From positions 241,485 to 305,484 of the forward strand of contig JAHYIO010000030.1 in assembly GCA_020543525.1 (NCBI GenBank): 64,000 nt of DNA. The letters are read 5' to 3'. Positions 43,471 to 64,000 of the stretch are shown here, one piece after another. Each line of letters starts with the position of its first letter. Within the stretch, counting starts at the first letter, position 1. The notes beneath the pieces were generated by a model. That model was not told the origin of the DNA, searched no databases, and was given only the letters and a program-made list of their open reading frames with translations. The stretch comes from Coriolopsis trogii (taxonomy: Eukaryota > Basidiomycota > Agaricomycetes > Polyporales > Polyporaceae). Position numbers and translations under genes: made by a program.

Positions 43471-44260
43471 TTATGCGCCGGGGGCCTTGCCCCAAGGCCC
43501 CGAGGTGACAAAATGGTTTGGGCCATAGCCGGCCAACCGTTGCTCGGAATCTTGGTGACAAGGGGTCCTTCCTATAGCCAAGAAGCAGGAGTATCCAACA
43601 GTGTTGGTTTTGTGGCTGTGCGCCCAGTCTCCATGGAGATATAGCCAGGTGACAAGTGTCAATGTCTTTTGGCACTGGGTGACAAGCTCAGTGTGGAGCC
43701 CATTGTGACTCAACCCCTGGGCAGAACCCAGGTGACAAGGGGTCATATGAAAGCCAGGATACAAGGCTACAAAATGAGGGTAGAACCAGGCCAATCTATA
43801 GAGTCTCCATTGAGAAATGGCTTGTCACCTGTTATCATCAGATTCTGAGGCAGAGTTGGTCAGGGTGGTGACAAGCTCATTGTAGCTGCCCCTCTAGTCA
43901 GAACCCATGTGACAAGGGATCCCCTGGGAGCTATGATATATGGCTACAAAATGGGGGTAAGATGGTGGCAATCCATGGAGTCTCCGAGGAGAAACAGCCA
44001 AGTGACAAGCAGAGTTTGCGTTCTGGGACTGTCACCAAGGTCATTGAGAGCCTGATTGTGGGCCAACCGTTGGTCAGAACCTTGGTGACAAGGGTCCTTT
44101 GTATAGCCAGAAAAGAGACAAATCCAATGGTACCCATTTTGTGTCTGTACAATGTGTCCCCATATAGAAACTGCCTTGTCACCTCCGGAATATAGCATTT
44201 TGGCATGCTGGGCCTGGTAGATTGGACCATGTGATCTGACCAGCTGTCCAGGTCATATGA
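43471..44260. repeat. Array X: about four degenerate 190-bp tandem repeats
   Basis: The array opens with TTATGCGCCGGGGG and a perfect 9-bp-arm, 3-nt-loop hairpin (43481-43501). About four diverged units follow, sharing the words CCAACCGTTGGTCAGAACC, TGGTGACAAGGG, TATAGCC and CTCCATGGAGAAA. Nearly every unit uses GTGACAAG. A sister array at 54143 starts with the same sequence but uses GTGGCAAG. No open coding frame of interest. Confidence 0.85.
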
Positions 44261-46169: not shown

Positions 46170-46862
46170 ACGAGTTAGGGTTATGAGAGATTCTGAGGGT
46201 CCCTGGGTTGAGATTAGACCCTAGGGTAGGGTCTTACAACCCTAATTTAGGGTTTAAATAAGACTTTCCCACCCCCGTCCCACGTATGTCACACAGATAC
46301 TACAGACAGCCATGGGTACCAACTCATGTAGATTAAAATATCTCACGCAGCATCATATCTACACTCTATAGCAAACAGGCATATATTCTCAACTTATACT
46401 GATTTACTATGTCTATATACTCAAATACACTAGGTTCATCTATATACTGGACTGGGATTTTATTCTGGTTAGTGAATTGAAATAGCAGTTATAGGCAAAC
46501 AGCATATGATAAATCCCCCATTGCACTCTGATCGTGGCCGCTGCTTAAAAGTCCAAGTTTGGCATTCTCAGTATGGCAGAATATCTATACACCAAAGCAT
46601 GCAACTTGCATGCTTTGGTGTATAGATATTCTGTCACTGTGAATGCCAAACTTAGACTTTTAAGCAGCGGCCATATCAAATCACACCATTGAAAGGTAAC
46701 TCATATAGTAATATGGCAGGATTATTGTTTCTTACTTGTATAGAGTGACATTGTAATCAGTGTGTTCTTATGTCTTAATGCAGCGGTTCTAACACTGTAG
46801 TTATCTTATCTGGGACATGGTCGCGCTTATCTAGTTGCTCAATCTTATCACGCAGAGATCCG
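46170..46862. repeat. Repeat Y, copy A (LTR-like, with fold-back)
   Basis: About 690 bp nearly identical to 55882-56566. It starts around GGGTTATGAGAGATTC, contains a CCCTAATTTAGGG dyad followed by a TATA-like TTTAAATA, and encloses a 137-bp fold-back. Size and TATA-like motif suggest a solo LTR or a non-autonomous element. I found no TG..CA ends or target-site duplication, so the class is open. Confidence 0.75.
46536..46672. repeat. 137-bp fold-back palindrome, copy A
   Basis: Arms of about 68 bp run from GGCCGCTGCTTAAAAGTC to its complement GACTTTTAAGCAGCGGCC with few mismatches. The core GCATGCAA-C-TTGCATGC has a single unpaired central base. Transcribed, it would form one very long hairpin. 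Confidence 0.95.
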
Positions 46863-47066
46863 GGAGTCCTGGACGCCCTGCGCCGCGGGCCAGCAACCGG
46901 GATCCGAGAAATGCGGAACACACAGAGACGCGGGAGTCCTGGACGCCCTGTGCCGCGGGCCGGCAACCGGGATCCGAGAAATGCGGAACACACAGAGACG
47001 CGGGAGTCCTGGACGCCCTGCACCGCGGGCCGGCACCCGGGATCCGAGAAATGCGGAACACACACC
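46863..47066. repeat. 70-bp tandem repeats carrying the GGCGTC dyad, copy A
   Basis: Nearly three copies of a 70-bp unit. Each starts with GGAGTCCTGGACGCC and includes GGATCCGAGAAATGCGGAAC. A shorter set lies at 56567-56690 in module B. Confidence 0.92.
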
Positions 47067-47312
47067 ACCGGCGTCCAGGACGCCGCTCGCACCAGACATC
47101 GCTTTGATGCAGGCGTCTTTACGAGGGGTGCAATGCGCGCGAGGCGTCCAGGACGCCGCTCATCCCATGCGGATGGGGAGCACAAGCATATGCGAGTGCC
47201 TCATTAGTGCGTGACGCGTCGGGAGTCCTGGACGCCGCACAATTCCATACCACTTATTCGCTCAGTGGTGCCTATAATAGATAGGCAAGGGGCGCAGGAC
47301 GTCCAAGACGCC
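46863..47312. promoter_or_regulatory. Cluster of seven GGCGTCYNRGACGCC-type dyads
   Basis: Palindromes at 46863, 46933, 47003, 47070, 47143, 47222 and 47298 (first base; each 15 bp, arms of 7). Perfect forms are GGCGTCCAGGACGCC at 47070 and 47143; the others carry one or two arm mismatches. They lie just downstream of the Orf1-A stop. They could be binding sites for a dimeric protein, possibly element-encoded; the function is unknown. Confidence 0.7.
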
Positions 47313-47458: not shown

Positions 47459-50400
47459 CTACTCAACTACGAAGACTCGAAGGTCGTTGACGAGGAACGC
47501 GGTGCTGGCATCCTCCACCGCATTGCGAACGTTCCTTGCGTCATTGGCCGTCTTCAGCACCTCACCCCACTTCCTTGAACCATAGGGCTGTGCCTCGTTG
47601 CTGCGAATTTTGGAGAGTCGCGCGAGGAACCAACCTTCGGCCCAAGGACTCCAGAAACCGATGTTGTATGACGACCGGTTCCAGTAGTGAGGCTGGGGCC
47701 ACCACGACATGTCCGAAGTCTGAGTGTTGCGCCAATCTAGAGAACAATAGAATTAGTACCTGGGCACAAGAAAATAAGAAGGAACACTTACTCGAACAAA
47801 CTTTGTACACACCGCAGATGAGAGCTATCTCATCAGCGGTAAGCCCGTCGTCGTACCAGTCGTCCCCTCGGTTCGGGCGGAACGCCTGTCCGTACCGGTA
47901 GACGTCGACCGAGGGCCCCTCGATTGCCGCCGTGACCACCCCGCCGTAGAGAATCTCCATCGCGATTCGCCACACAATCCCTCCCTGGAGGAGAGCAGCC
48001 CGACCTTTGGGACCTCGGAGGAGATCGTACACCCGGCTCTCGTAGTGCCGGTAATCATATCCGTTGAGGGACATTGAGTCGGCGCGCCATCCAAGGCTGA
48101 CTGGGGGAGCGGGCTGTGTCTTCATGGGAGTCCGGTGATCGGGCTTGAAGATGGTGCGGAAGGGAATACCTCTGAGGACGAGGTATTCCGCGGCGGCTCG
48201 GCGGTTGGTGATGGTGTGGACGCGGAGGAGCCGGACGACAGTCGTGGCGTGGGGGACGATGAGCTCCCAGTCGAGCTGCAGGGCGTCGTCGGCGTGGTAG
48301 CGCAGGTAATACCACGACTCCCTGGAGAGCTCCTGCTTGGTGATTTGAAGCGACGGGTGAATGTACCCGACGCGACGGACGTTCTCCGGGCAGAGTGCGT
48401 GGAGGTCCCATACAGCAGCGGGGAGGACGGGAGGCTTCCGCTTGGTGAACCCGTAGACGAATGCTCGCATACAATCGAGGTATGCGTCGTCGATATCGAA
48501 CGCCCCCTCGCCCTCGTCGGCTCGCAGGTATCCAACCACCCGTCGCAGAACCTCGGCAGTAAAGCCGAGTCCCGTCCACTCCTCCGGTGGGTGCTCAACA
48601 CGAACCACCCCGAGATGCTGTCGGAGGACATCGCGCACGGGATCGAAGACGGGTTGGAACTTGATATTGTCTGCGTCGTAAAAGACGCTCAAGTTGTTGG
48701 CGAAGGACGATGTGAGGAAATTGGGGATTTCCCCGTCTTCGATGGGTTGAGGGTCGTGCGGGGGATTGAATCGAGGGGCGGTGGGCAGCGCAGTTTGGGA
48801 CGAGGAGGGTACGGGCTGAGGCGTTGGGGCAACAACGGGGGCCGGAACCAGGACGGGTGAGGGGACGGGGACGGGGATGGAAGGCGCGAGGGGCGGATGT
48901 ACCGTTGGAGCGGGGACAGACGACGACGACGATGGCGCGTTGGCCGTCGGAGGGGCGTTACGGGCGGGCTCACGCAGAGGGGCGAAGGTGAGCGTTGGGA
49001 AGTCGTCGTCGTCGTCATCGTCGTCGAGCTCGTCGTCGGGGCACAGCTTGGGACAAATGTCCCACTCATTGTGGAACGAGTCGTACCGCTTCTGGCGCAC
49101 GGTGTACTGGTTCCATGTGTCGAGGCGGCCCCGTTTCCCTATGAGCTTCCGATAGTCCTTGTCGAGATACTCCGGGGGAACGTTGGGGTCGACCTCGCCG
49201 ACCTCCACCCACAGGAAGACGGGTATGCTGTGCGGGGGGTAGTTGAAGGCCGCGTGCGCTTGTTCGCGAGCGAGGCGGGCAGCCCGCGCCTCCTCAGACT
49301 CATTCGCCATGATTGCCTGCGCCCTTGCCTCCCGTCGCGCGAAGAACTCCGAGTATGATTCCCCGGATTGCTGTCCTGGCCCGTGCGGAATCTTGGGTGC
49401 GGCCGGGACTTCAGCCGGAACTTCAGAGGGCGGCGGCGGAGGCGGCTTCCAGCGTGCGAGGCGGTCCCAGCGAAAGAATCGCGGGACTCCGTACATGGGA
49501 TTCCGCGCAACCTTGGCGGGGTCGCGGTTGGGTGGCGGGGTTGGAGGAGGGACAGCATGAAAGTCGGGCATGCTGGGACGGAGGGGAGCAAGCCAAGGAA
49601 ATTCCTGGCATGCCGCCTGCCAGTGGTCAGGCTTGGGGAGAAGGAGGTAGATTGGGAGGCCGGCGGCAGCCATGACCGGGAGATGGTCAAGCCAGCGCAC
49701 GCGAGCCTCTCCAGGGCCAAGAGCGACGTAAGCGCCGGTGCGGATGCCAGGAGAGAGGTCGGAAATGAATGGATTCTGAAAGGCCGCCAGCCAATTGCTG
49801 GACATGCCCTTTTTCAAGACGAGGGTGACCCAGTGAGGAGGATAGTGAGACGGGGGAGGAGGGAGGATGGTGTGGAGAGAGAGGGCGATGGCGAGGGTGC
49901 ACCGCGCCGCCAGCACCCCCATCGCATCCCTCGCCCGCGCGGCCGCGATGTATGCCTCGTGTTCGTGCCGGTGGACGTGTTCGTACCCGGCCTGCGCAGG
50001 GAGAGGCCAGAAGGGATCGAGGGGGAACTTGGAGGCAGGCGTGGGCGGGATGGCGGCGAAGAGGGTCTCGCTGAACCACAAGAGACCCCGCTCGACCGTC
50101 CGCCATTGTTTGACAATGTCGTCCTTCATGCGGACGCCGTCGGCGAAACGCTCGAACTCCACCCGCTTGAGGTCGACGCCAAGCTGCGCCATCCACCGAT
50201 TCTCGCTGTCGAAGGAGCGGACCATGTACGCGAGCTCAGGGCAGAGCTTGTTGACCCAGAGAGCCTTGCGCAGGTCGCGTCCGTACACACCCTCGTATGG
50301 CGTCTCGAGGATGAGGCCGGGGAGGGAGTCGACTTCGGACGGGTTGATGACGACGAAATCGGACTTATCCTCCTGGTAGAAGAAGTACTTGCGGGGATAA

Positions 50401-50485
50401 GTGGAGCTGTGAACGTATTAGTATGCGATCGTACGATTGACTGTAATTCGGTTACTTACAGGGAGGACAACGCCATTGGATTCAT
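47459..50485 (-). CDS. Orf1-A: ~970-aa protein of unknown function, intact
   Basis: Three exons (50485-50460, 50406-47792, 47736-47459) join in phase to 972 codons. The start is ATG 50485 (MNPMALSSL); the copy in module B has the same short first exon and both introns at matching places. The N-terminal block (about 1-330) has the most ordered sequence (GRDLRKALWVNKLCPELAYM, SETLFAAIPPTPASKFPLDP, RARDAMGVLAARCTLAIAL). A charged helix follows (GESYSEFFARREARAQAIMA), then QKRYDSFHNEWDICPKLCPD, an Asp-only run, and a Pro/Val/Ser linker of about 100 residues. The C-terminal block contains WELIVPHATTVVRLLRVHTI, GWRADSMSLNGYDYRHYESR, GGIVWRIAMEILYGG and a Trp-rich end (MSWWPQPHYW, FWSPWAEGWFLARL). 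No catalytic motif, membrane segment or known domain was recognised. It is divergent from the helicase gene and probably co-inherited with it. Confidence 0.8.
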
Positions 50486-50647
50486 TGTGAGATGCGCGCG
50501 CGAGAGGGGGTGAGTTGAAGCAGGAGGTTATGCTGTGGGGAAGATAGAATGATGAGAGAGAGCGCGCGCGCATGCAAATGATGAGCACTTACGGAGCAGG
50601 AAACCAGGAAGACGAAGATGTAGATATGCGAAGGAGGAACGGGAGGT

Positions 50648-50753
50648 GTGAAGGACAACCCTCACAGAACCCGGAAGAGAGGAGGAGAGTATGTAGTTAC
50701 GAGGCGAAGAAACTATGTAGAGAAGCACGGGAGGTGTGAAGGACTACCCTCAC
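50648..50753 (-). promoter_or_regulatory. Two leader hairpins upstream of Orf1-A
   Basis: Sense-strand (minus) motif GTGAGGGTTGTCCTTCAC at 50665-50648 and GTGAGGGTAGTCCTTCAC at 50753-50736. Each forms a 7-bp stem with a 4-nt loop, a closing T-A pair, a 3x3 internal loop and an outer CGGG/CCCG stem. The nearer copy starts 163 bp upstream of the ATG; in module B the distance is 166 bp. Confidence 0.8.
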
Positions 50754-51115
50754 AGAACCCGGCAGAGGAGGAGGGGAGAGGGAGGGGTACCGAGAGAGGT
50801 CTTGATTGGAGAGAGTGGTTAGCGCGCCGATGATTTGAGACGGCGCGTCGGCGGGAGGTGTTTACGCGAGGTGGTAAGCGAGATGATGGGTCGAAATTGG
50901 GAGGGTGGGCGAGAGGTAACTGTGTTGCTGGCAGCTGGTGGTGGGTGGTGTGTTGTTGAGCGCAAACGGACGAGCGCGAGAATCGGAGGAAGAGTCGGGA
51001 GTGTCGAGCAGGAGATGGTGGGCCTTGCCCTCCAAAACCTGGGGATGCGGGGTGCGGGAGAGAGTGGCGGTCGCTGGGAGGCGACTGATGTTGGACTTGG
51101 CGATTCTCGCGCCCT
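50754..51115. other. Divergent spacer of module A
   Basis: No gene. GA-rich on the plus strand, merging into the conserved block downstream. It includes a CCTCCAAAACCT word (near 51030) also present in module B near 60870. Confidence 0.5.
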
Positions 51116-51320
51116 TGTTTGGTCATGTTTGGTAGGTGGCTGTGCCGGGAAGTCGGTCTTTTGGCTTTTGCCATGCCGGTGGCTGTGCCAAGAAGATAGC
51201 GATAATCTTGAGATTAGACTATTAAGAGATAAGATTATTCCGCAGCACGTGAGGAAGATCGTATCTCAGTTCGCCACGTGGGCGGATCGGGACTTCGACT
51301 CAACATACTGAACGCCTCCG
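51116..51320. promoter_or_regulatory. Conserved noncoding block with paired E-boxes, module A
   Basis: About 200 bp strongly matching 60955-61165: GGTGGCTGTGCCGGGAAGTC, CTTTTGGCTTTTGCCATGCC, a GATAAGATTA word, and two CACGTG E-boxes at 51246-51251 and 51275-51280, 29 bp apart exactly as in module B. It is probably the shared bidirectional control region of Orf1 and the helicase. Confidence 0.65.
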
Positions 51321-51364
51321 CTCTACCATCTCAACTCGCTTCCCTCCCCCACTCCTGCAGCCTC

Positions 51365-51453
51365 GTGAGGGTCGTCCTTCACGTTCCTGCGTCTGGGCGA
51401 CTCTAGGCGACTCTTGGCAACCGTTCTGCAGCCTCGTGAGGGTAGTCCTTCAC
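51365..51453 (+). promoter_or_regulatory. Two hairpins in the middle of the divergent region, module A
   Basis: GTGAGGGTCGTCCTTCAC at 51365-51382 and GTGAGGGTAGTCCTTCAC at 51436-51453, each flanked by GCAG and CTGC that form the outer stem. They lie about 1.2 kb upstream of the helicase ATG with no convincing gene directly after them, so they may mark a second leader or transcript. Confidence 0.75.
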
Positions 51454-51465
51454 GTTCCTGCGTCT

Positions 51466-51560
51466 CTGGCGACTTCGACACGACACCTTAGCGACTTCGA
51501 CACAGACTTACCGGCGACTTCGAAACGGACTTACTGGCAACTTCGACACGAGCGCCGCAC
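51466..51560. repeat. Short GGCGACTTCGACACG tandem repeats
   Basis: About four imperfect copies of a unit of roughly 22 bp, GCGACTTCGACACRGACTTA, follow directly on the hairpin pair. Confidence 0.8.
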
Positions 51561-51815
51561 TAAACCGCCTTTCTCCATTGCCACGCCCGATGTTCCACTC
51601 CCGCAATGACTGCTCTTCTTGCGGGCAGTGAAACATTGGAGTGCAAGCTCGACTTCGCCCGCGACCGCACTCAGCTTGCAACATGCGCAACCTCCTCAAG
51701 ATATAATTCTCGACTATCTTCACTTCCTCATGGACCCTCAGCAGATCGTCAAGCAACACACCACCGCCCTTATCTGACTCCAAGCACGCCGAATCGCGCC
51801 AATGCCCCACAAAGC

Positions 51816-52210
51816 GGCGTCCGAGACTCCGCGCGGCCCACGACGCAGGTCTTCAGCCCGACCCCTCCACCTCTCGCCGCTTCCTATGACTGCTCCATAT
51901 CGGTTCCACTCACCGGCTTCGTGCGGGTTGTCCTGCACGTCCCCGAGATTCCAACTGGCTCTACGTACTGACCCGAGCTCACGATTGTCTCAAGCGGTAA
52001 GCTTTTATGACTATTCAGATAACCTGCCACAACTCGGGCGTCTCGGACGCCGCACGCAGCTGGATGAGCGCATGGACGGGCCTCGGTATGCACCGACTCC
52101 CCCGCTGCGTGCGGCGTCCAGGACGCCCCGATACGTCAGGTCGAGAACCCTCGGACCATAGGGCCGAACCACGATCGACGTCCTGCGTGGTGTGCGGCGT
52201 CTGGGACGCC
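51816..52210. promoter_or_regulatory. Four GGCGTC dyads in the divergent region, module A
   Basis: 15-bp dyads at 51816, 52037 (GGCGTCTCGGACGCC), 52113 (GGCGTCCAGGACGCC, perfect) and 52196 (GGCGTCTGGGACGCC). They sit between the central hairpins and the helicase promoter. Confidence 0.7.
51921..51938 (+). promoter_or_regulatory. Variant hairpin with a compensated stem pair
   Basis: GTGCGGGTTGTCCTGCAC: compared with the standard motif, the fourth stem pair changes from A-T to C-G on both sides, and the outer stem becomes CGG/CCG. Pairing is kept while the sequence changes. Confidence 0.7.
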
Positions 52211-52501
52211 GCCTTCCCCAACGGGGAACAAATCGTCGCAACGCCTGCCCAATCCCGCGTGCTCGCACACTGAACGTTTCTAGAAAGCGCCACCGATCAT
52301 ACGCTGACTGTTTTTCCGTTCCATCTAGTGTCTCTCTTACTAGCTGATGCAGAGCTGTGCCTGTGAGGTGCGAGGTCGCTTAGTGGCCGCGGAGGTGAAT
52401 ATCCTCTTATTTCCATCAGCCGAAATCCTTGGACTCACCTCGCGTCACCATGCAGATGATTTTCCGTCATAGCCTGCCGGCTCAAGCCCCACCGAGAGGA
52501 G

Positions 52502-52507
52502 TATAAA
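52502..52507 (+). promoter_or_regulatory. TATA box of the helicase gene, module A
   Basis: TATAAA 181 bp upstream of the ATG. The matching TATA in module B lies at a similar distance. Transcription would be expected to start about 30 bp downstream, which would place both following hairpins in the 5' leader. Confidence 0.6.
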
Positions 52508-52568
52508 GAGGTCGGGCCATGACCCTGCGTAGCCCCGCTACTTTCCCCCGCTTTCCACCTGCAGTCTC

Positions 52569-52661
52569 GTGAGGGTAGTCCTTCACGTTTCTGTCGAGCT
52601 CACCGTCGCCGTCGCCGCTGCACTTCTCCCCATCTACAGTCTCGTGAGGGTTGTCCTTCAC
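52569..52661 (+). promoter_or_regulatory. Two 5'-leader hairpins of the helicase gene, module A
   Basis: GTGAGGGTAGTCCTTCAC at 52569-52586 and GTGAGGGTTGTCCTTCAC at 52644-52661. Spacings are 67 bp TATA to first hairpin, 75 bp between hairpin starts and 39 bp from the second hairpin start to ATG 52683. In module B they are 65, 70 and 40. Confidence 0.8.
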
Positions 52662-52682
52662 GTTTCTGCTTAATCCGAACGC

Positions 52683-54140
52683 ATGCCTACTCCGCCTGCC
52701 GCCGTCGCGCTTCTCGAGCTTGGTTTTCTCGACAAGCAGCCACTCGTCATTCCGACTCCTTGGAGTTGGAAGGAGTGGCAGCTTTTGACTAGTTTCCCTC
52801 ATGCGCCATGGGCACCCGAGGCAACGCGGGCCACTGTTCGTATCAGCGAGCGCAGGCTGGCGAAGATCAGGGCCTTCGCGCAGAAGTTCTATGCGCTGAA
52901 CAGCGAGTCGGCACGTCTCAAGTTCTGGCGCCAGCCTCAGACCCACACTGTAGCCCGCGACACGCTCAGCGATTGGATCCGCTTGCACTGGGGGACTTGG
53001 GGCATCAACAAGATCATCGACAAGTGCCTGGAGGCCCACGGTCGAGGCTTGTACGACGTTGCGACCAAGTCGGGGGAAACGGTACGTCACCTGGAGACTT
53101 ACGATTAGATTGCTCGCACTGACATTGAGTGACGCAGATCATGACGATGGAAGTCAGCAATGCCTCCGTCGCGTTCAATGACATTGCCGCGAGGCTCTTC
53201 GGACCTGACGCATTCATGTCCGAGAACATGTTGGATCCCGATGTCTACCGCTTCGTCAGCCAGCTCTGCGCGCTCACATGGAACCGATGGCGCAAATCGT
53301 TCGAGGGCTGCCGTCGCCGCGTCAACAACGCGCAGGTCAAGGTGGACGATCTCTACCTCGGTAAGCACCAACCTCTTTCTGATCATGAGTGATAGAAGCT
53401 CACCCTGCTGCCTAGTCATCACGACATCGGAGAAGCCTCGAGTTGTCGACATTCGTCTATGGATCCAAGCCGTAGGCAGGCTGATTGAACAGCTGAAATA
53501 CTTCAAAGATGCCGCCTCCGTCGAGGAGACAGAGCGCTACCGCACCCAAATGGAGGAAATCAAGGCTATTGCTATGCACGGCGACAGTGCTCCCATGGGT
53601 CGTACGTACACCTCGCAGAGCTTTGCGTGAGCTTCCAACGCTAATGATTGTTCAGGTATTCCTGCGTCTTTGAGGCGCGCACTCATTGACATCCCCTCGG
53701 AGGAGGACGTGCAGGCCATCTTGATCGCTGTTGGCGAGGTGATCAACCGCACGAGCCCGGATGAGGATGAGGAACTTCCCGAGGGCGGCATGATGGACTT
53801 CATGGACTGGAAAGAAGGGACGGAGATGTACTCGCATCTGGATGAGCACGCTATCGACAAACTCTTGGGCATCAACCAAACCAACGGGACGTTCCTCGAC
53901 TTCAACGACACGGAGGACCCTGACTGCGCTCATGATCCCTGGTCTGTGGAGGGACGCAAATTCCTCAAGGAAGGATTGGGCGTCCCCCTTCGTTTGAGGT
54001 GGCATCAAAAGGTCGGCATCCTGCGCATCTTCGAGAACAAGTTCGCCCAGAAGAACATGGCGCTCGGAGATGAGGTTGGCGTTGGGAAGACTGGACAGGC
54101 GTTGGCGACGATTGCCGGGTCGGTGCAGTACGAAGCCTAG
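52683..54140 (+). pseudogene. SNF2-like helicase gene A, truncated after Walker A
   Basis: Exons 52683-53081, 53138-53360, 53416-53601 and 53656-54140 join in phase to 430 codons. The N-terminal 320 or so residues are a helical region of unknown family (ERRLAKIRAFAQKFYALNSE, WIRLHWGTWGINKIIDKCLE, QLCALTWNRWRKSFEGCRRR). An acidic stretch follows (SPDEDEELPEGGMMDFMDW), then the start of a SNF2-type ATPase: LRLRWHQKVGILRIFENKF and the Walker A motif ALGDEVGVGKTGQALATIAG. A stop follows eleven codons after GKT, exactly where repeat array X' begins. The remaining helicase motifs II-VI are therefore missing and the product cannot be an active ATPase. The upstream exons are clean, so truncation looks recent. 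The module B copy continues past the window. Confidence 0.75.
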
Positions 54141-54142
54141 TG

Positions 54143-54995
54143 TTATGCGCCGGGGGCCTTGCCCCAAGGCCCCCAGGTGGCAAACTGTTTTGGGCCATAG
54201 CGGCTCATCCGTTGCTCGGATCCGCGGTGGCAAGGGAGCACTATTGTAGCTAGAAAGCATACAAATCGAACGATACCTTACCTGAGGCCATACCATGAAT
54301 CCCCGCGGAGATATGGCTTGCCCATTGCCGAGTTACAGTTTTTGACTTTGCCATTAGTGGGAAAGATGGGGCTGTTGCGGACCAACCGTTGGTCGGATCA
54401 GCAGTGGCAAGGGAGACATATTATAGCCCCAGTCCATAGCTTTCCAACAGTATATGATACATGGCTGTACGCCATGTCTCCGTGGAGAAATGGCTTGCCA
54501 CCTCACGCAGGCACATCCCAAATATTATGCGGTTCTTGAACAGATGGGGCTGTAGTGTACCAACAGGTGGTCAGATTTGTAGGGGTAAGGGAGACCAATT
54601 GTAGCCCCAGTCCATAGCTTTCTAATGGTATATGATACATGGCTGTACACCACATCCCCATGGAGAAACGGCTTGCCCATCGCCGAGTTACGGTTTTTGA
54701 GTTTGCTATCAGTGGGAAAGATGGGGCTGTAGCGGACCAACCATTGGTCGGATCAGCAGTGGCAAGGGAGACCAATTGTAGCCCCAGAGGACAGCTTTCC
54801 AACGGTATATAGATTGTGGCTGTGCGCCCGATCCTCATGGAGATATGGCTTGCCATCTGGTGCAGATGGGTATAAGTACTGTGCAGAACCACTACACATG
54901 GCTCTGTTGATGCCCACGTGTTGCTTGGATCTGTGGTGGCAAGGGAGACATATTGTAGGCTCAAAGACTAGCTTTCCAACAGTATATGAATTGTG
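54143..54995. repeat. Array X': degenerate ~190-bp tandem repeats, second copy
   Basis: Begins with the same TTATGCGCCGGGGG and terminal hairpin (54153-54173) as array X, directly on the end of the helicase fragment. Units share CCAACCGTTGGTCGGATC, GTGGCAAGGGAGAC, CCATAGCTTTCCAA and CATGGAGAAA words. Confidence 0.85.
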
Positions 54996-55104
54996 GCTGT
55001 GTACCATCTCCTCCTCCACTGTGTTATCTCCCGAAGTTGGTGCAGTTTGAGCACGTGCTCTTTCAACAACTCTTGCCCTAGGACCTTCTAGTACCATAGC
55101 TATA

Positions 55105-55705
55105 GCTAGCCACCACTCTGCCCAGGATGATGTTCAATGTGGAGCAGCGTTTGCTGAAGCTGTACAGGCTGCGAAACAGGCAAGGCTGGATAGGGAAGGA
55201 CGACTACAGCCACTACTTGAGTGGTGGAGGAAGGCTTTGGACAAGTTTTCTGGGCACTGTGGATTGTGCCAGATTACGAGGCCGAAGAACTACCCAGTAC
55301 AAGATCAGCACAACATTGTTCATTGTCCAACCATGGTGGAGCTGCTGAAGAAGACGAATGAGGACAGTCAGCGGACTGGTAGAGAGTACTTAGACTGGAG
55401 GAAGCAGCTAAGGTACTATAGGTCAATGGGTGCTTGGTCAAAGTGCCACATACCGTTCCTTCAGGATCTTCTTCATCCTACAAATGCTGGGAAGGGCTAG
55501 GGAACAAGCTGCAACATGGCATGGATGGTATACTGGGCATAGTACTGCAATGAGTGGTGTAGGTTGGCAGAGAGGGAGTTTGGGATATGTTGGGCGAATG
55601 ATATGTCATTTGCAGCATGGTTGGTAAGTAGGAACACGGATAAGAAGTATGTGAAGATTGCTAGGTTTTGGTTGTGGTTGGTAGAGTATTGGCTAAGGCA
55701 GTAGA
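55105..55705 (+). pseudogene. Decayed cysteine-rich mobile-element ORF, copy B
   Basis: The same ORF as at 44517-45241, with a longer open stretch: AAFAEAVQAAKQARLDREGR, LLEWWRKALDKFSGHCGLCQ, QHNIVHCPTMVELLKKTNED, LRYYRSMGAWSKCHIPFLQD. It then stops, and resumes out of frame with EWCRLAEREFGICWANDMSF. The order CxxC, H, C, then a second Cys/His patch resembles RecQ-associated element proteins. Non-functional. Confidence 0.55.
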
Positions 55706-55881
55706 GTAGTATTTGTGGTGTATTGGATTGGTTGTGTGTTGTAAGAAGTGTTGGTTGATTGTTTGGGTTATAAAGTGTGTATGTGAACTTAGAGGGAAGT
55801 AGGGTTGATTATGTGTTGTAAGAAGGGTTAGTTGGTTGTTTTGGGTGTAGGGTTGAAGCTATTGGGTGTAGAAGTGGTGAG

Positions 55882-56566
55882 GGGTTATGAGAGATTCTGA
55901 GGGTCCCTGGGTTGAGATTAGACCCTAGGGTAGGGTCTTACAACCCTAATTTAGGGTTTAAATAAGACTTTCCCACCCCCGTCCCACGTATGTCACACAG
56001 ATACTACAGACAGCCATGGGTACCAACTCATGTAGATTAAAATATCTCACGCAGCATCATATCTACACTCTATAGCAAACAGGCATATATTCTCAACTTA
56101 TACTGATTTACTATGTCTATATACTCAAATACACTAGGTTCATCTATATACTGGACTGGGATTTTATTCTGGTTAGTGAATTGAAATAGCAGTTATAGGC
56201 AAACAGCTTAAAATAAATCCCCCATTGCACTCTGATCATGGCTGCTGCTTAAAAGTCCAAGTTTGGCATTCTCAGTATGGCAGAATATCTATACACCAAA
56301 GCATGCAAGTTGCATGCTTTGGTGTATAGATATTCTGTCACTGTGAATGCCAAACTTAGACTTTTAAGCAGCGGCCATATCAAATCACACCATTGAAAGG
56401 TAACTCATATAGTAATATGGCAGGATTATTGTTTCTTACTTGTATAGAGTGACATTGTAATCAGTGTGTTCTTATGTCTTAATGCAGCGGTTCTAACACT
56501 GTAGTTATCTTATCTGGGACATGGTCGCGCTTATCTAGTTGCTCAATCTTATCACGCAGAGATCCG
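55882..56566. repeat. Repeat Y, copy B (LTR-like, with fold-back)
   Basis: Nearly identical to 46170-46862 over its whole length, with only a handful of differences (for example around 56208-56215 and the palindrome centre). This is much closer than the flanking coding regions are to each other. Confidence 0.8.
56240..56376. repeat. 137-bp fold-back palindrome, copy B
   Basis: Same arms as copy A with one or two changes at the outer left end. The single central base is G here and C in copy A (GCATGCAA-G-TTGCATGC). Confidence 0.93.
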
Positions 56567-56690
56567 GGAGTCCGGGACGCCCTGCAGCGCGGGCCGGCAC
56601 GCGGGGGTCCGAGAAATGCGGAACACACAGAGATGCGGGAGTCCTGGACGCCCTGCACCGCGGGCCTGCACGCGGGATCCCAGACTGTAG
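56567..56690. repeat. 70-bp tandem repeats, copy B
   Basis: Slightly under two units, related to 46863-47066 but diverged (GGAGTCCGGGACGCC and GGAGTCCTGGACGCC starts). Confidence 0.85.
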
Positions 56691-56956
56691 AACTCAGTTG
56701 GTCGTAAGACTCGATCGGGCAGTGTGCTTGGATTGCATGTGTGTGAATCACACCATTTTGAACCGGGCGTCCAAGACGCCCCTCACCGCGCTTCGCTTCT
56801 ACTCCCTCGGGCACATCCGCCATGGCTCCCCCACGTCCTCGCTCCATGCGAGGCACGCGGCGTCCTAGACGCACTCTGCGCGTCACCCCTGGGAGTGGTA
56901 CTTGCACCCTTGCATCCAATGTGCACACATGCGGGACCTGCGGCGTCTTGGACGCC
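56567..56956. promoter_or_regulatory. Five GGCGTC dyads downstream of Orf1-B
   Basis: 15-bp dyads at 56567, 56638, 56766 (GGCGTCCAAGACGCC), 56859 (GGCGTCCTAGACGCA) and 56942 (GGCGTCTTGGACGCC). They occupy the same position relative to Orf1 as the cluster in module A, although the surrounding sequence is largely different. Confidence 0.7.
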
Positions 56957-57239
56957 GCTGGTGGGTGTTCCGCATTTCAGGTGAGGCAACCCAGAGCAGC
57001 ATCGAGCGTGGTGTGTTGAGGATGCCATTGTCGATATAGCACACAAATTGAATCTGTCGAGAGACATTCTATGATACATTATGTTCGAGAATACATGTCC
57101 GAGTGTACAATATCACGAGCACGAGATGCAACCTCTGCACGGCGCTTGATGCTTAGCTGAAGATATAATAGAGCAACGAGGAAACAATCATCAGTCTGAA
57201 TGTATGGAGAAATGGTAACACATAGGCAAAGCACCTCAC

Positions 57240-60200
57240 CTATTCAACCACAAAGACACGGAGTTGGTCGGTCAGGAACTGCACGCTAGCGTCCTCCACC
57301 GCATCCCGGACCTGACCTGCAATCTTGGCGGACTTGAGGTTTTTTCCCCATAGCTTTGACCCGTACAGTTTGGCCTCGTTGCTGCGAATGGAGCTCAATC
57401 GCGCGAGGAACCAGCCTTCGGCCCAGGGACTCCAGAACCCGTTGTTGTATGTGCCGCGGTCCCAATAGTGAGGTTGAGGCCACCACGACATATCCGACGT
57501 CTGCGTGTTGTGGGCATCTACATAAGAGGAGAACATTCGTTTCGTTAGCGATAGTGAATGAATGAAGGAAAGGATACGTACTGGAACAGACTTTGTAGAC
57601 ACCGCAAATGAGAGAAATCTCGTCTGCGGTGAGCCCATCGTCGTACCAATCGTCGCCTTTGTTTGGGCGGAACGTCTCGCCATACACAAAGACGTCCTGC
57701 GAAGGCCCATCGACCGCTGCGTCAACCAGCCCGCCATGCATGACTTCCATCGCTATCCTCCAGACAATGCCTCCCCGGAGCAAAGCAGCACGTCCTTTCG
57801 GACCCGAAAGGAGGTCGTAAACCCGCCTCTCGTATAACGTGTAGTCGTACGCATTGAGAGACATGCTGTCTGCGCGCCATCCAAGTGTCACTGGGGGGGC
57901 GGGCCTGAGGTTCATCGGTGTCCTGTGATCGGGCTGATAGATTGTTCGGAACGGAATACCTCTGCTGACGAGGTACTCTGCGGCTTCTTGGCGGTTGTCG
58001 ATGTTATGCACACGGAGGAGGGTGACCACGGTGGCCGCATGAGGAACTATGAGCTCCCAGTCCAGTTGCAGGACCTCGTCGTTGGTGTAGCGTAGGAAGT
58101 ACCACGAATTCCTCGACAGTTCTCTCCTGGTAACTTGCAGGGAAGGATGTATAAGCCCGGCGCGCAGGATGTTCTGTTCGTTGTCTGGATGGAGGTCCCA
58201 GACAGCAGGGGGGATTGCGGGAGGCTTCTTGAGGAGACCGTCGATGAAGGCTCCAAAGCAGATCATGTACGCCTCATTGACCGCAAAAACACCACCATCT
58301 TCTCGGTCCGAGCGGAGGTACCCAATGGATTTGCGGAGGAGCTCGGTGGTGTAGTCGTTTTCAAACCACTCAGCCGGTGGATTCTCGAGAGGGAGCACTC
58401 CATAGCGCTGACAGAAGAGCTCGGACGCGGAATCGAACTTCGGGAGGAAGTTGACGGTGTCGGCCTGACTGAACTCGCTCAAGTCATAGCCAAATGATGC
58501 CATGAGGAAGGTAGGGATTTCCCCTTCCTCCGTGGCCTCCGCGACAGGTACCGACGAGGGCGCAGACATGTCTCCCGACGACTTCCCCTCAGCTCTCGAC
58601 TTGGAGTTGGATGGAAGTGGCTGCTCAGCGTGAGATGACGAAGGCACAGGCGGAGCCGTCGGGTGAACAAAAGAGGTCGCGGTTGGAGGACCATTCATGA
58701 GCGGCTGGGCCAGGGGTGCGAAGGTCAACGGGGCGTAGAACTCGTCGTCGGAGTGGTCGTCGGATAGCTCGTCATCAGGGCACAACTTCGGACAGATATC
58801 CCACTCGTTGTGGAAAGAGTCGTAGCGTTTCTGTTTGACAGTATACTGGTGCCAGATTTCTTCTCGCTTGCGCCTCCCGACAAGTTGGCGATAATCCTTT
58901 TCAAGGAAGTCCGGGTTGACGTTCGGGTCGATCTCGCCGACTTCTACCCAAAGGAAGATGGGAATTTTATGGGGGGATATTTGAACGCAGCGTTCGCCTG
59001 CTCCCGCTCGAGGCGGGCAGCCCGCGCCGTGTCCGACTCTTGCGCCATGATGTCCTTTGCCCTTTCCTCTCGTCGCTTGAAGAATTCCGCATAGGATTCC
59101 CCCGGCCGTTGTCCTTTGCCGTGCGGGATGTCCGCGACTGCTGGTGCATCTTGAGCGGGTGGAGCGTCGCCTGGGACTGGCAAAGGGCCTTCACTGCTCT
59201 GGGGAACTGCCAGTTGGAAATCGAACCTGGGTTTTAACCGGTCCCAGCGGAACGTGCGAGCCAAGCCATACACAGAATTGGCAGCGACCTTGGCGGGGTC
59301 GACATTTGGTAAACGACGAGGAGCAGGTATGTAGTGTTGCTGGCCAGAGCTACAGATACTCTGGAACCAGGGCTGATCCAACAGTGTCTCAAACAATTGC
59401 TCGGAACGGGGGACCTCGATGTAGATGGGGAGGCCGACAGCAGCCATCACGGGGAGGTGGTCGATCCAGCACAACCGGCGCTCGTCTTTCGTGATGGAGC
59501 AATATGCACCAACGCGGATGCCGGGAGATAGGTCGGGGATGAAACTGTTCTGGAAAATGGTGAGCCAGTTGCCGGATACCTTGGGCATGATGATTTGTAC
59601 CCAGGAGGGAGGATAGTGGGCAGGCGGAGGAGGGAGGAGGGTTTTCGTCAGGGCAATCGCGAGGGTGCACCGAGCTGCAAGCACACCCATGGCGTCTCGC
59701 GCGCGCACAGCTGCAATGCGCGCGGGCCGTCTCGTGAGGATGGATCCATTGATACTTGTACTCTCTGGGGAGGGGCCAGAAAGGATCGAGAGGGAATTTC
59801 GAGGCAGGGGACGGCGGGAGGGCTGCGAAAAGAGTCTCGCTGAGCCAAAGGAGAGCCTTCTCGACGCGGTCCCAGTTGTCGAGCATGTCTTTCTTCATGC
59901 GCACGCCAATTCCCATACCGCTCAAACTCAAGCTTCTTGACATTGACGCCAACCTGAGCCATCCATTGATTCTCGATGTCAAACGATCGGAGCATGTATG
60001 CGAGCTCCGGGCACTTCTTGTTGACCCACAGGGCCTTGCGCAGGTCTCGACCTGATGCGCCACCATCGTACGGGCACTCGAGAATCATTCCGGGGTAGGA
60101 CTCAATCTCGGATGGGTTGATGAGGACGAACATAGAGTTGTCCTCTTGGAAGAAGAGGCGCTTGAGCGGGTAGTTTTGCCTGTGGACAGTTTAGCATGCG

Positions 60201-60248
60201 GATATATATTCTCACAAGTGTCGCAACTTACAGAGTAGACAGCTCCAT
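57240..60248 (-). pseudogene. Orf1-B: frame-broken homologue of Orf1-A
   Basis: Same architecture and intron positions as Orf1-A: a short first exon from ATG 60248 (MELSTL) and a last exon ending RVFVVE at 57240. Matching blocks are GRDLRKALWVNKKCPELAYM, KFPLDPFWPLP, SPGIRVGAYCSITKDERRLC, KRYDSFHNEWDICPKLCPDD, GWRADSMSLNAYDYTLYERR and MSWWPQPHYWDRGTYN. The frame shifts three times against copy A: near 59915 (after EFERYG), near 59715 (before ARDAMGVLAA) and at 58973 or so, where a six-C run is one base short. The last could be an assembly error. The first two look like real lesions. The two proteins are clearly homologous but not recent duplicates, being most alike in the C-terminal block. 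Confidence 0.75.
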
Positions 60249-60413
60249 ATTTTCAATGGTCGGATGAGCAAGCGAGGGAAATGGACAGTCGGACGAGGAC
60301 ACAAGCAGAATATCCTGTGCGCAAGCAAGGTGAGCTATGTGACATATGGGCAATGGAATCGCGAGATAAGCACGTACGAACAGCGAAAATCGGCAGAGGG
60401 CGAGACGGGAGGT

Positions 60414-60609
60414 GTGAAGAACAATCCACACAGAACCCAGAGGTTCGAGATACGCGAGATATGCGAGAGAGGGAGAGAGGGAGAGAGGTAGGTGCCAACG
60501 GGAGGTGTGAAGAACAATCCTCACAGAACCCGGAATGACAACACACAGTGGGTGGGAGAGAGAGAGGGAGATGTATGAGTCGACGGGAGGTGTGAAGAAC
60601 AATCCTCAC
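60414..60609 (-). promoter_or_regulatory. Three leader hairpins upstream of Orf1-B
   Basis: Sense-strand motif GTGAGGATTGTTCTTCAC at 60524-60507 and 60609-60592, plus a weaker copy GTGTGGATTGTTCTTCAC at 60431-60414. The outer CGGG/CCCG stem is kept in the two good copies. Compared with module A the seventh stem pair is A-T instead of G-C. Confidence 0.8.
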
Positions 60610-60954
60610 AGAACCCGGAAGCAAGGGGAAGGAGAGGGGAGACGGGGATCTTGTTGGACAAAGATCGCAGAAGTTCCGGACTGGATACTTGATAGATGGT
60701 GGTCGGAGCCGTATCGACTGGGCGAGTTGGTGGGTGAAACGTCGGTTGTCGCGTGAGGGTGACTACGTGGCGAACCGTCGGAGATGGTGGGATGATGATC
60801 AGAGCCAAAGAGCAAGGGGGGGCGCCAGAAGTGAGTAGAGAAGTGGGAAAGGAGATGGAAGGATTTACCCTCCAAAACCTAGGGATGAGGGATGCGGAAC
60901 AGATGTCGGGTACGTGGAAGCGACGATGTTGGACTTAGCGATTTTCGAGCTTGT

Positions 60955-61165
60955 GTTTGGCGCTGTTTGGTGGGGGTGGCTGTGCCGGGAAGTCGGCCTT
61001 TTGGCTTTTGCCATGCCGGTGGCTGTGCGAAGAAGATAATGAAGATCTCCATGTGGAGATGGCGATTAGACTTCTATGAGATAAGATTAGTCCGCAGCAC
61101 GTGAGGAAGATGGCATCTCAGATCGCCACGTGGACCGAAGCGACTTCGATTGAACATACTCATAC
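60955..61165. promoter_or_regulatory. Conserved noncoding block with paired E-boxes, module B
   Basis: Counterpart of 51116-51320, with CACGTG at 61098-61103 and 61127-61132, again 29 bp apart, and the same GATAAGATTA and GGTGGCTGTGC words. Confidence 0.65.
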
Positions 61166-61220
61166 TCAACGCCTACTCCTGACATCTCGCGGCTCGGCTC
61201 GTCTCCCCTCCTGCAGCCTC

Positions 61221-61300
61221 GTGAGGATCGTTCTTCACGTTCCTGCGTCTCGGGTACCTCCTGGCGACTCTCTTGCAGCCTCGTGAGGATTGTTCTTCAC
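61221..61300 (+). promoter_or_regulatory. Two hairpins in the middle of the divergent region, module B
   Basis: GTGAGGATCGTTCTTCAC at 61221-61238 and GTGAGGATTGTTCTTCAC at 61283-61300, flanked by GCAG and CTGC. Counterpart of 51365-51453. Confidence 0.75.
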
Positions 61301-61721
61301 GTTCCTGCGTCTCGGGCTAATCTGGCGACCTCTGACGACACGTCAACCGTCTCGGCAAGACACGGGACAATAGTCCTGCGGCACCCTTTCTCTTCTGGTG
61401 TATCCATGTTTTCTCGGTGTCTGGTTATCTCGGCTCCTATCCGTGTACACGTGCTCTCCTCCCTCCTCCTCCTCCTCCTCCCTCTTCCTCCTCCTCCCTC
61501 CCCGTCCGGTGGATCTGAAGACGAGCGCGGCGCCGGCTTCGTTTCGAAGTGTTTGGGAGGTCAAACCCTGCTGCCGTCCCGCACACTCTCCGCCGGACCA
61601 TGCGCAAAACTGGCACCTCCTGGCGACTCTCTTGCAGCCTCGTGAGGATTGTTCTTCACGTTCCTGCGTCTCGGCCAATCTGGCGACCTCTGCTGACACG
61701 TCAGCCATCTCGGCAAGACAC
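61256..61721. repeat. 108-bp direct repeats bracketing a CTC-rich tract
   Basis: 61256-61363 is repeated at 61615-61721 (from ACCTCCTGGCGACTCTCTTG to CTCGGCAAGACAC). Each copy carries one hairpin motif (the second at 61642-61659). Between them lies a CTC/CCT microsatellite (about 61451-61500). Confidence 0.85.
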
Positions 61722-61726
61722 TCAAG

Positions 61727-62060
61727 TAGGGCTGCTCAATTCTTGTGGACGCTGGACGTTGGACGCGTTCAGAGCATTTTGATGGACGCAATGGTGTAAG
61801 CGAGAACAGCTGACATCCTCCGCGCGCTTTTGCCCTTTCGGTGGCGTCAACGCTGTCCCACCAGCTCCCGCAAGATGCATATCCCTGAAACACATGCATC
61901 GGCTAGGGTGCCGTATTTCACGAACACAGAAGAATTCCGACGTCATCCCAAGGCTAGTTTAGCTCGCTGCGAGAGCTTTGAGGAGGAGAGGGAGGAGCAA
62001 GACGTCAAAGTGCTCTGAACGCGTCCAACGTCCAGCGTCCACAAGAATTGAGCAGCCCTA
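61727..62060. mobile_element. 334-bp MITE-like element with 58-bp terminal inverted repeats
   Basis: The left end TAGGGCTGCTCAATTCTTGT is matched by the inverted right end at 62003-62060, about 58 bp with two or so mismatches. The interior has no coding capacity. The TAGGGCTGCTCAA terminus resembles hAT ends, but I could not find a clean 8-bp target duplication. It is absent from the corresponding part of module A. Confidence 0.8.
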
Positions 62061-62181
62061 GTACCCACTTACCACACCACTATGTAAGCGACTCCCGCCA
62101 AACGATTCCGTAAACTCTGAGCCGATGCTTGTCCGACTCTTGAGCACCGCGGCTGAATACTGGCCCACGGACGAAGCTGAC

Positions 62182-62621
62182 GGCGTCCAAGACGCCTCGC
62201 AACACGCACGGCTGTGGCGCTGCGTACAGATTTGACACACCATCTCGCCGTCCTGGACGGCCCACGCGCGGCGACCATTCCCCTCGGCAACTGGCGCAAA
62301 CATGCCAAGCCTATGCTCGGCCGGCTTGCCCCCGATTGACGACATTGTCACGGCGCCATTCCCTGCCATACATACACACACAACGTCTCTGATGCGAGAT
62401 TACGATCCTCTCACTAGGTAAGTTCTCACGTTTCGCACACGCACACAGGAGTGAGGCGTCCTCGACGCCGCGCGCCGCTTCCCGACGCCATGGCTGCTCG
62501 CCCAAGGGCTTCAGTGCGCAGAAGTAGTCCCCCGCGACAGGCGGCGTCACAGACGCCTCCGTGCGCAACGTTTATGGCCACAGTGCCTCTTTGACCCGCG
62601 GCGCGCGGCGTCTGAGCCGCC
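62182..62621. promoter_or_regulatory. Five GGCGTC dyads in the divergent region, module B
   Basis: Dyads at 62182 (GGCGTCCAAGACGCC), 62247 (GCCGTCCTGGACGGC, a perfect palindrome with both arms changed), 62455, 62543 (GGCGTCACAGACGCC) and 62607. They lie just upstream of the helicase promoter, as in module A. Confidence 0.7.
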
Positions 62622-62903
62622 GCCTTTCTAACGAGGAACCGCCCGCATCAATCTACGCGTCGCTACCCAAGACCACCCGCTGCTTAAACATACTGGACAA
62701 CGCCACCGATCATACACTAACCGATTTTCCTTTCCATCAGAGGATTCTAGGGCCGCAAATCGTATGGTCCGAGTCGCGTAGTCTCGATGGAGCCACAACC
62801 GAGTGGGTATGATATCTCTGCGATCAGCGATTAGCCCATATCTCACCTCCTATCACCTTGCAGAACAATGTCCCATCTCATGCCGCCAGTACTAACCCGA
62901 CAC

Positions 62904-63063
62904 ACATATATATAAGGCCACGGGCCAGGCGAGCTCATAGTTTACCTTTCCACCCCTTCCCCCCTCTGCAGTCTCGTGAGGATTGTTCTTTACGTTTCTG
63001 CGGATCACCGCCACCGTCACCGTTACACCGCCCATCGCCAGTCTCGTGAGGATTGTTCTTCAC
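62904..63063 (+). promoter_or_regulatory. TATA box and two 5'-leader hairpins of helicase gene B
   Basis: A TATATATAAG box ends near 62915. Hairpins lie at 62976-62993 (GTGAGGATTGTTCTTTAC, last stem weakened) and 63046-63063 (GTGAGGATTGTTCTTCAC). The ATG follows at 63086, 40 bp after the start of the second hairpin. Confidence 0.75.
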
Positions 63064-63085
63064 GTTTCTGTGTGCCCGTCCAAAG

Positions 63086-64000
63086 ATGCCCACCCCACCT
63101 CCGGCATGTGCGCTCCTCGAACTCGCGTTGACCATGAGCGTAGGTTCAGATCCCTTTGACCACCCTGCCCCCTGGTATTGGGATCAGTGGCGCAACCTCA
63201 CCGATGTCCAACACCCCCCATGGGTCCTCGAGGCCGATCCGGAGGACGTGCTCCTGGACGAGGACAAACTCGCCGCCATCCGGGCTTTTGTTCACAAGTA
63301 CTACGCGCACTCGAGCGCGGATGCACGTCTCAGGTTCTACAGGAAGTCCGAAGCCAACTTCGAGGGCCGCGACGCGCTCCGTGAATGGGTCGGCGATCGC
63401 TGGAAATCCTGGGGTGTGAACACAATCATTGATGAGGCCATGGCCGCCCATGGGCGCACTATGTACTCGGTCGCTACCCCCGACGGGTCTTCGGTAAGCT
63501 GCGTGCGACGGTTCACAATTGCTCGGGCTTACAAGGCTGTCTTCGCCAGCTTATGACCATGGAGGAGAGTTGGGCTGGCATGGCCTTCAATGACATTGTC
63601 ACAAGGCTGTTCGGCGCCGACGGATTCAAGCCCGATGGAATGCCCCACTACCAGGTCTCGCGGTTCGTGACACAACTCTGCGCGCACACGTGGCACAGAT
63701 GGCGCAAGTCCTACAGTACGCGCCGTGGGTATGTCAAGAGGGCTCGGAGCGCTGCAGATCAATTGTATCAGAGTACGCAGGCTCCCGACTACTACCATTA
63801 TTACGTGTGCTAACTGTAGGTCTCTATAGAGATAGTGGGGTCGAAGACGCCGCAAATGGCCGCTGTCCGCAAATACCTGAAACAGGTGTCCACGCTCATT
63901 GAGAAGCTCAAGCTCTTCCACGACGCGAGAGTGGTCAACGCGTGAAGTGCACTACTGCGAACAGCAGGAGATTAAGCTGCTGCTCATCGAGGGTGACAAG
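63086..64000 (+). CDS. SNF2-like helicase gene B, 5' part (runs off the window)
   Basis: Homologue of the gene at 52683. Exon 1 is 63086-63493, exon 2 is 63550-63772 (223 nt, the same length as in copy A) and exon 3 starts at 63830. Matching blocks are MPTPPPACALLELAL, KLAAIRAFVHKYYAHSSADA, WVGDRWKSWGVNTIIDEAMA, MAFNDIVTRLFGADGFKPDG and QLCAHTWHRWRKSYSTRRGY. Near 63943 the frame appears to shift by one base (DARVVNA then stop, with HYCEQQEIKLLLIEGDK in the next frame), so this copy may also be inactive, or a base may be missing in the assembly. The ATPase domain would lie beyond 64000. Confidence 0.65.

Follow-up and report, generated by a model that had tools for sequence, protein, structure and literature searches.

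Two hairpin-bearing gene modules at a contig end

The DNA analyzed here (the window) comprises 64,000 nt of Coriolopsis trogii sequence at the right end of contig C27, and the coordinates of modules A and B refer to it. Each module contains the genes Orf1 and Orf2, which diverge from a shared block and whose leaders hold repeated copies of a hairpin that very probably functions at the RNA level. Orf1A (minus strand, 47562 to 50485; first ATG at 50485; predicted intron at 50459 to 50407) encodes an orphan protein. Orf2A (plus strand, 52684 to 54140), annotated from its frames and domain matches as an SNF2-type ATPase, is shortened in this copy at about 54140. In module B, frame comparison revealed that Orf1B (minus strand, 57286 to 60190) is broken over several frames, and the frames of Orf2B (plus strand, 63087 to 64000) represent its 5' part, which continues past the contig end. 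The blocks shared by the modules (51125 to 51300 and 60963 to 61152, not assigned to a strand) are 76% identical, with Orf2 exon 1 at 56%, and presumably serve as divergent promoters.

A sequence-only reading of this DNA had claimed 15 hairpin copies, each sense to its gene. Searching the window for GTGAGGRTNGTYCTTCAC with up to three mismatches produced 15 matches, all where they had been placed, compared with 0.71 ± 0.95 (largest, 3) in 100 shuffles. Copies on the minus strand are sense to Orf1 and copies on the plus strand are sense to Orf2, in agreement with the claimed orientation. On the minus strand, hairpins were located at 50639 to 50674 and 50727 to 50762 in the Orf1A leader and at 60405 to 60440, 60498 to 60533, and 60583 to 60618 in the Orf1B leader. 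On the plus strand, the distal Orf2A leader contains copies at 51356 to 51391, 51427 to 51462, and 51912 to 51947, and the proximal leader contains copies at 52560 to 52595 and 52635 to 52670, the 18-nt core of the last lying 22 nt before the ATG. The corresponding positions for Orf2B are 61212 to 61247, 61274 to 61309, and 61633 to 61668 (distal) and 62967 to 63002 and 63037 to 63072 (proximal), with the last core 23 nt before the ATG. The copy at 61633 lies in a 63-nt stretch 98% like that at 61253 to 61315; all copies were identified by motif, alignment, and covariance model, and those starting at 50639, 51356, 51912, 52560, 60583, and 63037 were identified by RNA folding as well. The covariance model, trained on the 15 window copies plus 6 rows taken elsewhere in the genome (21 in total), recovered those 15 in the window, as it must. 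Its next listings were degenerate copies on the minus strand at 60848 to 60882 (E = 0.0021) and, as the counterpart, 51008 to 51042 (E = 0.46); a degenerate hairpin thus occurs upstream on the Orf1 strand in both modules.

Structure and covariation of the A/B hairpin

Including flanks, the element spans 34 nt and consists of an outer helix of 3 to 4 bp, a 3-by-3 internal loop, an inner helix of 8 bp that includes an invariant G·U pair, and a UNGU loop. All seven sense copies that were folded gave this structure with 3 or 4 outer pairs (−14.2 to −18.8 kcal/mol; z, −3.7 to −5.6), and the antisense strand of four copies folded less well (−10.0 to −15.3 kcal/mol; z, −2.6 to −3.2). Several details of the sequence-only reading were borne out: the G·U wobble is present in every alignment row, the loop-closing stem pair is G-C in the 7 module A copies and A-U in the 8 module B copies, and a compensated C-G replaces A-U at stem pair 4 of the 51921 copy (51912 to 51947). 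The reading had also described the internal loop, which is present, and outer stems of GCAG/CTGC in plus-strand leaders and CGGG/CCCG in Orf1 leaders (as at 50639 to 50674), which are present but not uniform. The 52644 and 63046 copies pair CAG/CTG only, the 51921 copy pairs CGG/CCG only, and the 52569 copy contains one G·U within the outer stem. One G-C to G·U change was found in the copy at 62967 to 63002. Internal-loop letters were pyrimidines in 102 of 102 cases across 17 distinct rows, which is only suggestive of a meaning beyond the pyrimidine-rich leaders, because three leader samples were themselves 70 to 77% pyrimidine.

The hairpins are conserved islands within diverged leaders. Six corresponding A/B hairpins differ at 22 of 216 positions; 12 of these differences constitute the coordinated G-C to A-U change at the loop-closing pair, found in 6 of 6, and 3 fall on the free loop letter. 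The six neighboring stretches are 35%, 36%, 37%, 43%, 48%, and 69% identical between modules, the last value belonging to the stretch that separates the proximal pair of Orf2 hairpins. Outer helices go with the leader, being common to A and B for the same leader, and loop-closing pairs go with the subfamily, being common to its different leaders. Functionless repeats, spread and homogenized by gene conversion within each subfamily, would likewise leave copies alike within a subfamily, and 61612 to 61674 is indeed a 98% copy of 61253 to 61315. However, the outer stems vary from leader to leader yet remain paired and are common to A and B for the same leader, and with most surrounding stretches only 35 to 48% identical, conversion would need to stop inside the hairpin. 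This account is very unlikely; conversion restricted to the inner hairpin could also explain the A/B pattern but is less likely.

Covariation was scored over 17 distinct rows (204 cells), with 500 shuffles and slid versions of the alignment as controls. Paired cells made up 97.1% of the total (shuffles, 83.0 ± 1.5; slid, ≤66.8%), 37 cells were changed on both sides (shuffles, 14.2 ± 3.1; slid, ≤9), and the covariation score was 0.445 (shuffles, 0.178 ± 0.023; slid, ≤0.223). None of the 500 shuffles reached the A/B values for pairing, double-change cells, or score.

A subtelomeric element family and its genes

The genome searched (one genome; 38.8 Mb in 39 contigs) contains at least 75 motif matches with at most one mismatch (60 exact and 15 with one), compared with 1 for the reversed pattern. 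Seventy-three of the 75 lie within approximately 33 kb of a contig end; the two others, C33:2190319 and C34:1878882, have one mismatch each. Telomere arrays are found at several hairpin-bearing contig ends, such as that of C2, where the array occupies positions 3 to 26 and the first hairpin is at 153. This placement shows that the hairpin-bearing module belongs to a subtelomeric family of elements and that its motif is not a signal in general use by the host.

The module had been described as having two genes. Orf1 and Orf2 are both present, but the element has at least three genes, and the leader of the third, Orf3, also holds two hairpins. Orf2 and Orf3 point toward the contig end. Five relatives of the orphan Orf1 were found, one of them a Ganoderma sinense protein. 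In a domain model scan, Orf2 matched SNF2-rel_dom (E = 1.7e-9) and Helicase_C (E = 7e-16), with pieces of Orf2B (37.7 versus 24.9 bits) and Orf2A (58.9 versus 23.5 bits) exceeding the curated cutoffs. Its solved relatives are SNF2-family proteins, e.g., fft3 and a RAD54-like protein, and its N-terminal part has one detected relative, in Sanghuangporus weigelae. Orf3 is present on C34, C35, C28, and C4 and has 24 relatives, including proteins of Trametes sanguinea, Lentinus tigrinus, Cubamyces sp., Pilatotrama ljubarskyi, and Amylocystis lapponica, a spread that makes a polypore host probable. At the end of C4, TTAGGG repeats (locus L033, 9040 to 9095) immediately follow the Orf3 frame, and it looks as if a telomere was added to an end broken inside Orf3.

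Orf1A matched 62 stretches across the genome, which were divided here into subfamilies by identity to Orf1A, with names and limits set in this analysis: A (89 to 100%), B (50 to 69%), C (33 to 47%), and D (28 to 42%). The Orf1 leader and the divergent leader of subfamily C on C6 hold a different repeated hairpin with the apex GGCUAUACU. Exact matches to GCGGCTATACTGC numbered 52 genome-wide, on C4, C6, C30 (both ends), C31, and C36; all 52 adjoin subtelomeric C-subfamily Orf1 genes, with the copies pointing outward from the center. A single mismatch was present in 35 further matches, 10 of which also lie at these C loci, and the reversed control gave 49 with at most one mismatch. Two C hairpins lie upstream of the Orf2C start codon, their apexes ending 63 and 122 nt before it. 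Alignment A4 of the C hairpin used 15 of 33 listed copies, the other 18 duplicating the stem letters of used rows. All 15 rows of A4 have CUAUA or CUACA as the loop, compared with UNGU in all 21 rows of the A/B alignment (A1), and the C helix is unbroken, without an internal loop. All 117 cells of the nine inner pairs (13 distinct rows) are paired in the sense strand, compared with 85 in the antisense strand. When all 11 pairs are counted, pairing extends to 91.6% of the 143 cells (shuffles, 83.4 ± 1.4), and double changes affect 5 pairs (shuffles, 2.3 ± 1.0) and 11 cells (shuffles, 3.3 ± 1.9); of the two outermost pairs, one is disrupted in 7 rows and the other in 5. The apical step, G·U followed by G-C, is invariant in both classes (A/B, 17 of 17; C, 13 of 13 distinct rows), which suggests that the two classes share an ancestor or are read by related factors whose loop specificity has changed. 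The distinct hairpin that subfamily C has in this arrangement makes an element-specific binding partner more likely. The stretch read at a C-type Orf1 on C28 (37626) contained no C hairpin; a C-type Orf1 on C28 is also preceded by a palindrome (locus L038, 7048 to 7186) related to a pair of 63-nt arms in the window, at 46574 to 46636 and 56278 to 56340, which are 97% complementary and occur one per tandem unit.

The hairpins might instead feed RNA silencing, in which divergent or folded subtelomeric transcripts would be cut to small RNAs that silence the element. Small RNAs of Ganoderma sinense are reported to arise from chromosome-end loci with both strands transcribed (PMC4457147). Silencing nevertheless leaves the invariant loop and the subfamily-uniform pair without a reason. 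The stems, of 8 plus 4 bp in A/B and 7 to 13 bp in C, are moreover below the usual dicer substrate, and this explanation appears highly improbable.

Other repeats occur between the element genes. Arrays of the perfect or near-perfect palindrome GGCGTCNNGGACGCC were found at 46863 to 47312, 51816 to 52210, 56567 to 56956, and 62182 to 62621 (48 matches with at most two mismatches, both strands counted, versus 3.76 expected); having no clear strand, these are possibly DNA sites. A tandem repeat of 177 to 178 nt has five units at 54189 to 55013, starting just past the truncation point of Orf2A, and one more at 43517 to 43632. Contig C28 contains a further element at 1.4 to 14.8 kb (loci L035 and L036), the Orf2 and Orf3 pieces of which are 30 to 48% identical to those of B. 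It carries arrays of GTCTGACAGTGTCGGAC (33 sites, of which 27 pair fully on the minus strand and 11 on the plus), which might constitute a third class of hairpin or correspond to the GGCGTC palindromes.

Sense RNA versus DNA sites

Compensatory change alone cannot distinguish an RNA hairpin from a DNA dyad, but asymmetry can. The hairpins might be DNA-level dyads that merely resemble RNA structures, either targets of a protein that binds DNA as a dimer or cruciforms for a replication initiator, and a changed factor specificity would equally produce a symmetric change in both half-sites. Dyads would not account for the orientation, which follows the transcript on both strands. One-sided changes also yield G·U and not A·C in the sense strand: the non-Watson-Crick cells of the A/B and C sets comprise 52 G·U, 3 A·C, and 3 other cells, with the A·C cells confined to the two outermost pairs of the A/B hairpin. 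The A/B pairs form in 198 of 204 cells in the sense strand and in 181 of 204 in the antisense strand, and copies lie downstream of a TATA box in three leaders. Because of the excess of G·U over A·C, the better pairing in the sense strand, and the orientation with the transcript, these patterns favor selection acting on the sense RNA, and DNA dyads are considered unlikely. The claim that this is a structured RNA element in mRNA leaders is thus well supported by the 97.1% pairing, the 37 double-change cells, the 52 G·U versus 3 A·C cells, and the position between TATA box and ATG.

Position of the hairpins in the leaders

A common order of TATA box, two hairpins, and ATG was found in three leaders. 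In Orf2A, TATAAA at 52502 to 52507 (plus strand) is followed by hairpins at 52569 and 52644 and the ATG at 52684. In Orf2B, TATATATAAGG with TATAAG at 62911 to 62916 (plus strand) is followed by hairpins at 62976 and 63046 and the ATG at 63087. Both boxes, read in the sequence, are presumed to mark the proximal promoters. In Orf3B on C34, TATAAAAG (locus L042, 5750) precedes hairpins at 5823 and 5898 and the ATG at 5969. The first hairpin begins 65 to 73 nt after the TATA box in these three leaders. Transcription is expected to start approximately 30 nt after a TATA box, and if it does so here, the first hairpin would lie near the cap, perhaps 35 to 40 nt away. The distal plus-strand copies (A, 51365, 51436, and 51921; B, 61221, 61283, and 61642) sit downstream of the shared block and upstream of the proximal TATA box. 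A 5' splice-site-like GTAAGC/GTAAGT and a subsequent pyrimidine-rich stretch, both conserved between modules A and B, suggest by eye a longer leader spliced toward Orf2. An insert-like segment with long terminal inverted repeats (AGGGCTGCTCAATTCTTGTGGACGC...), also recognized by eye and possibly a miniature inverted-repeat transposable element, occupies approximately 61730 to 62061 in the Orf2B leader region.

The hairpins could serve the export, localization, packaging, or stability of element transcripts without controlling translation. All three module B gene leaders carry them, and genome matches are nearly confined to element copies, as would be expected of a self-recognition signal. On the other hand, no reverse transcriptase, capsid, or transposase was recognized in the Orf1, Orf2, and Orf3 pieces scanned, which did not cover every element frame, and two copies per leader near the start codon fit initiation better. 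Such a role is judged quite unlikely.

Proposed role of the hairpins

We propose that the hairpins act in cis, as RNA elements within the 5' leaders of a telomere-linked multigene element, and are read by a subfamily-specific factor, a reading on which we are evenly divided. The transcripts of each subfamily would be read by their own trans-acting RNA-binding factor, and from the sequence patterns the case for and against such a factor is about balanced. The apical G·U and G-C step would form a common core, the loop and its closing pair would carry the specificity, and the outer helix would need only to pair. A factor bound at the first hairpin might block or license ribosome loading on the mRNAs of the element together, as with iron-responsive elements; that translation is the controlled step is possible but somewhat less than evenly supported. 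The factor is probably encoded by the element, since the motif is found almost only at element copies, and Orf1 and Orf3 would be the candidates.

Several findings weigh against this proposal. Neither descriptor nor model found an A/B hairpin in the A-type Orf3 leader on C4, where the upstream stretch folds no more stably than usual (z, −1.5), or in the element with which C28 begins. The sole D leader read, a 2-kb stretch at the start of Orf1D on C24, contained neither an A/B hairpin nor a repeated hairpin. No TATA-like match was found before Orf2C. The 60414 copy (60405 to 60440, Orf1B leader) has a T-T mismatch at stem pair 4. Shuffles matched or exceeded two of the five A/B measures, namely, pairs with double change (6; 29 of 500 shuffles) and pair types (11; 432 of 500), and since the rows are related, the covariation counts are not independent events. 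Two invariant pairs contribute 30 of the 52 G·U cells. No reader protein was recognized: the structure prediction for Orf1 was poor, and Orf3 gave no confident fold match.

More tentatively, and with some doubt, the subfamilies may have diverged into separate RNA recognition groups, each with its own hairpin and cognate element-encoded reader, making regulation private to the subfamily. Such private regulation could, speculatively, serve copy control or exclusion between coexisting elements, in the manner of phage immunity groups, although here in a eukaryote and through RNA. The one-pair A/B switch (6 of 6) would then be a specificity change caught partway and the C hairpin a completed change, an equally doubtful extension. 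If the proposal is true, it describes a fungal telomere-linked element whose genes form a posttranscriptional regulon, the matched RNA codes of which are not the same in relatives sharing one genome, and the divergence of RNA-protein specificity would be directly testable with short hairpins.

Comparison with known systems

No match to any of 4,227 Rfam families was found at the gathering score in the 64,000-base window, and no literature naming this element or hairpin was found in a search outside of which most subscription papers lay. The hairpins resemble the products of fungal structured-RNA screens (PMC8216456 and PMC5640933), which report conserved covarying structures, some in untranslated regions. 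One screen covered 1,371 Ascomycota genomes and aimed to avoid transposable elements (PMC8216456); the main text of the other returned nothing in a word search for basidiomyc-, agaricomyc-, transpos-, helicase, tandem, or subtelomer- (PMC5640933). If the proposal is right, the present hairpins point to basidiomycete mRNA leaders and mobile elements, which the former screen left aside.

In having a helicase-like gene repeated at chromosome ends by TTAGGG repeats, the element resembles telomere-linked helicase genes of the RecQ type, and RecQ genes are reported near telomeres in Ganoderma leucocontextum (PMC10817607). Orf2 is not of this type, as it matches SNF2-rel_dom and Helicase_C and no RecQ model at an E value of 0.01; unlike those helicase genes, it is also accompanied by two orphan genes, and hairpins are common to the leaders. 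The telomeric retroelements compared, Penelope-like elements, FoTeR, and similar elements, have reverse transcriptase as their defining feature.

Iron-responsive elements have a CAGUGN apical loop and a bulged C below a 5-bp upper helix, lie near the cap in leaders, and are bound by iron regulatory protein. The present hairpins do not fit iron-responsive elements in loop or helix: their loops are UNGU (21 of 21) or CUAUA/CUACA (15 of 15), and they have a 3-by-3 internal loop below 8 bp (A/B) or an unbroken helix (C) and no bulged C. The likeness lies in the arrangement. As in the iron regulatory protein regulon, a hairpin recurs in the leaders of several genes, although the protein reader is here only proposed. 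A conserved upper stem and loop are separated by an unpaired interruption from a lower stem that is free in sequence, and the first hairpin, 65 to 73 nt after the TATA box in three leaders, may likewise lie near the cap. Unlike iron-responsive elements, the hairpins described here occur in at least two copies per leader, are confined almost to one element family, and take subfamily-specific forms.

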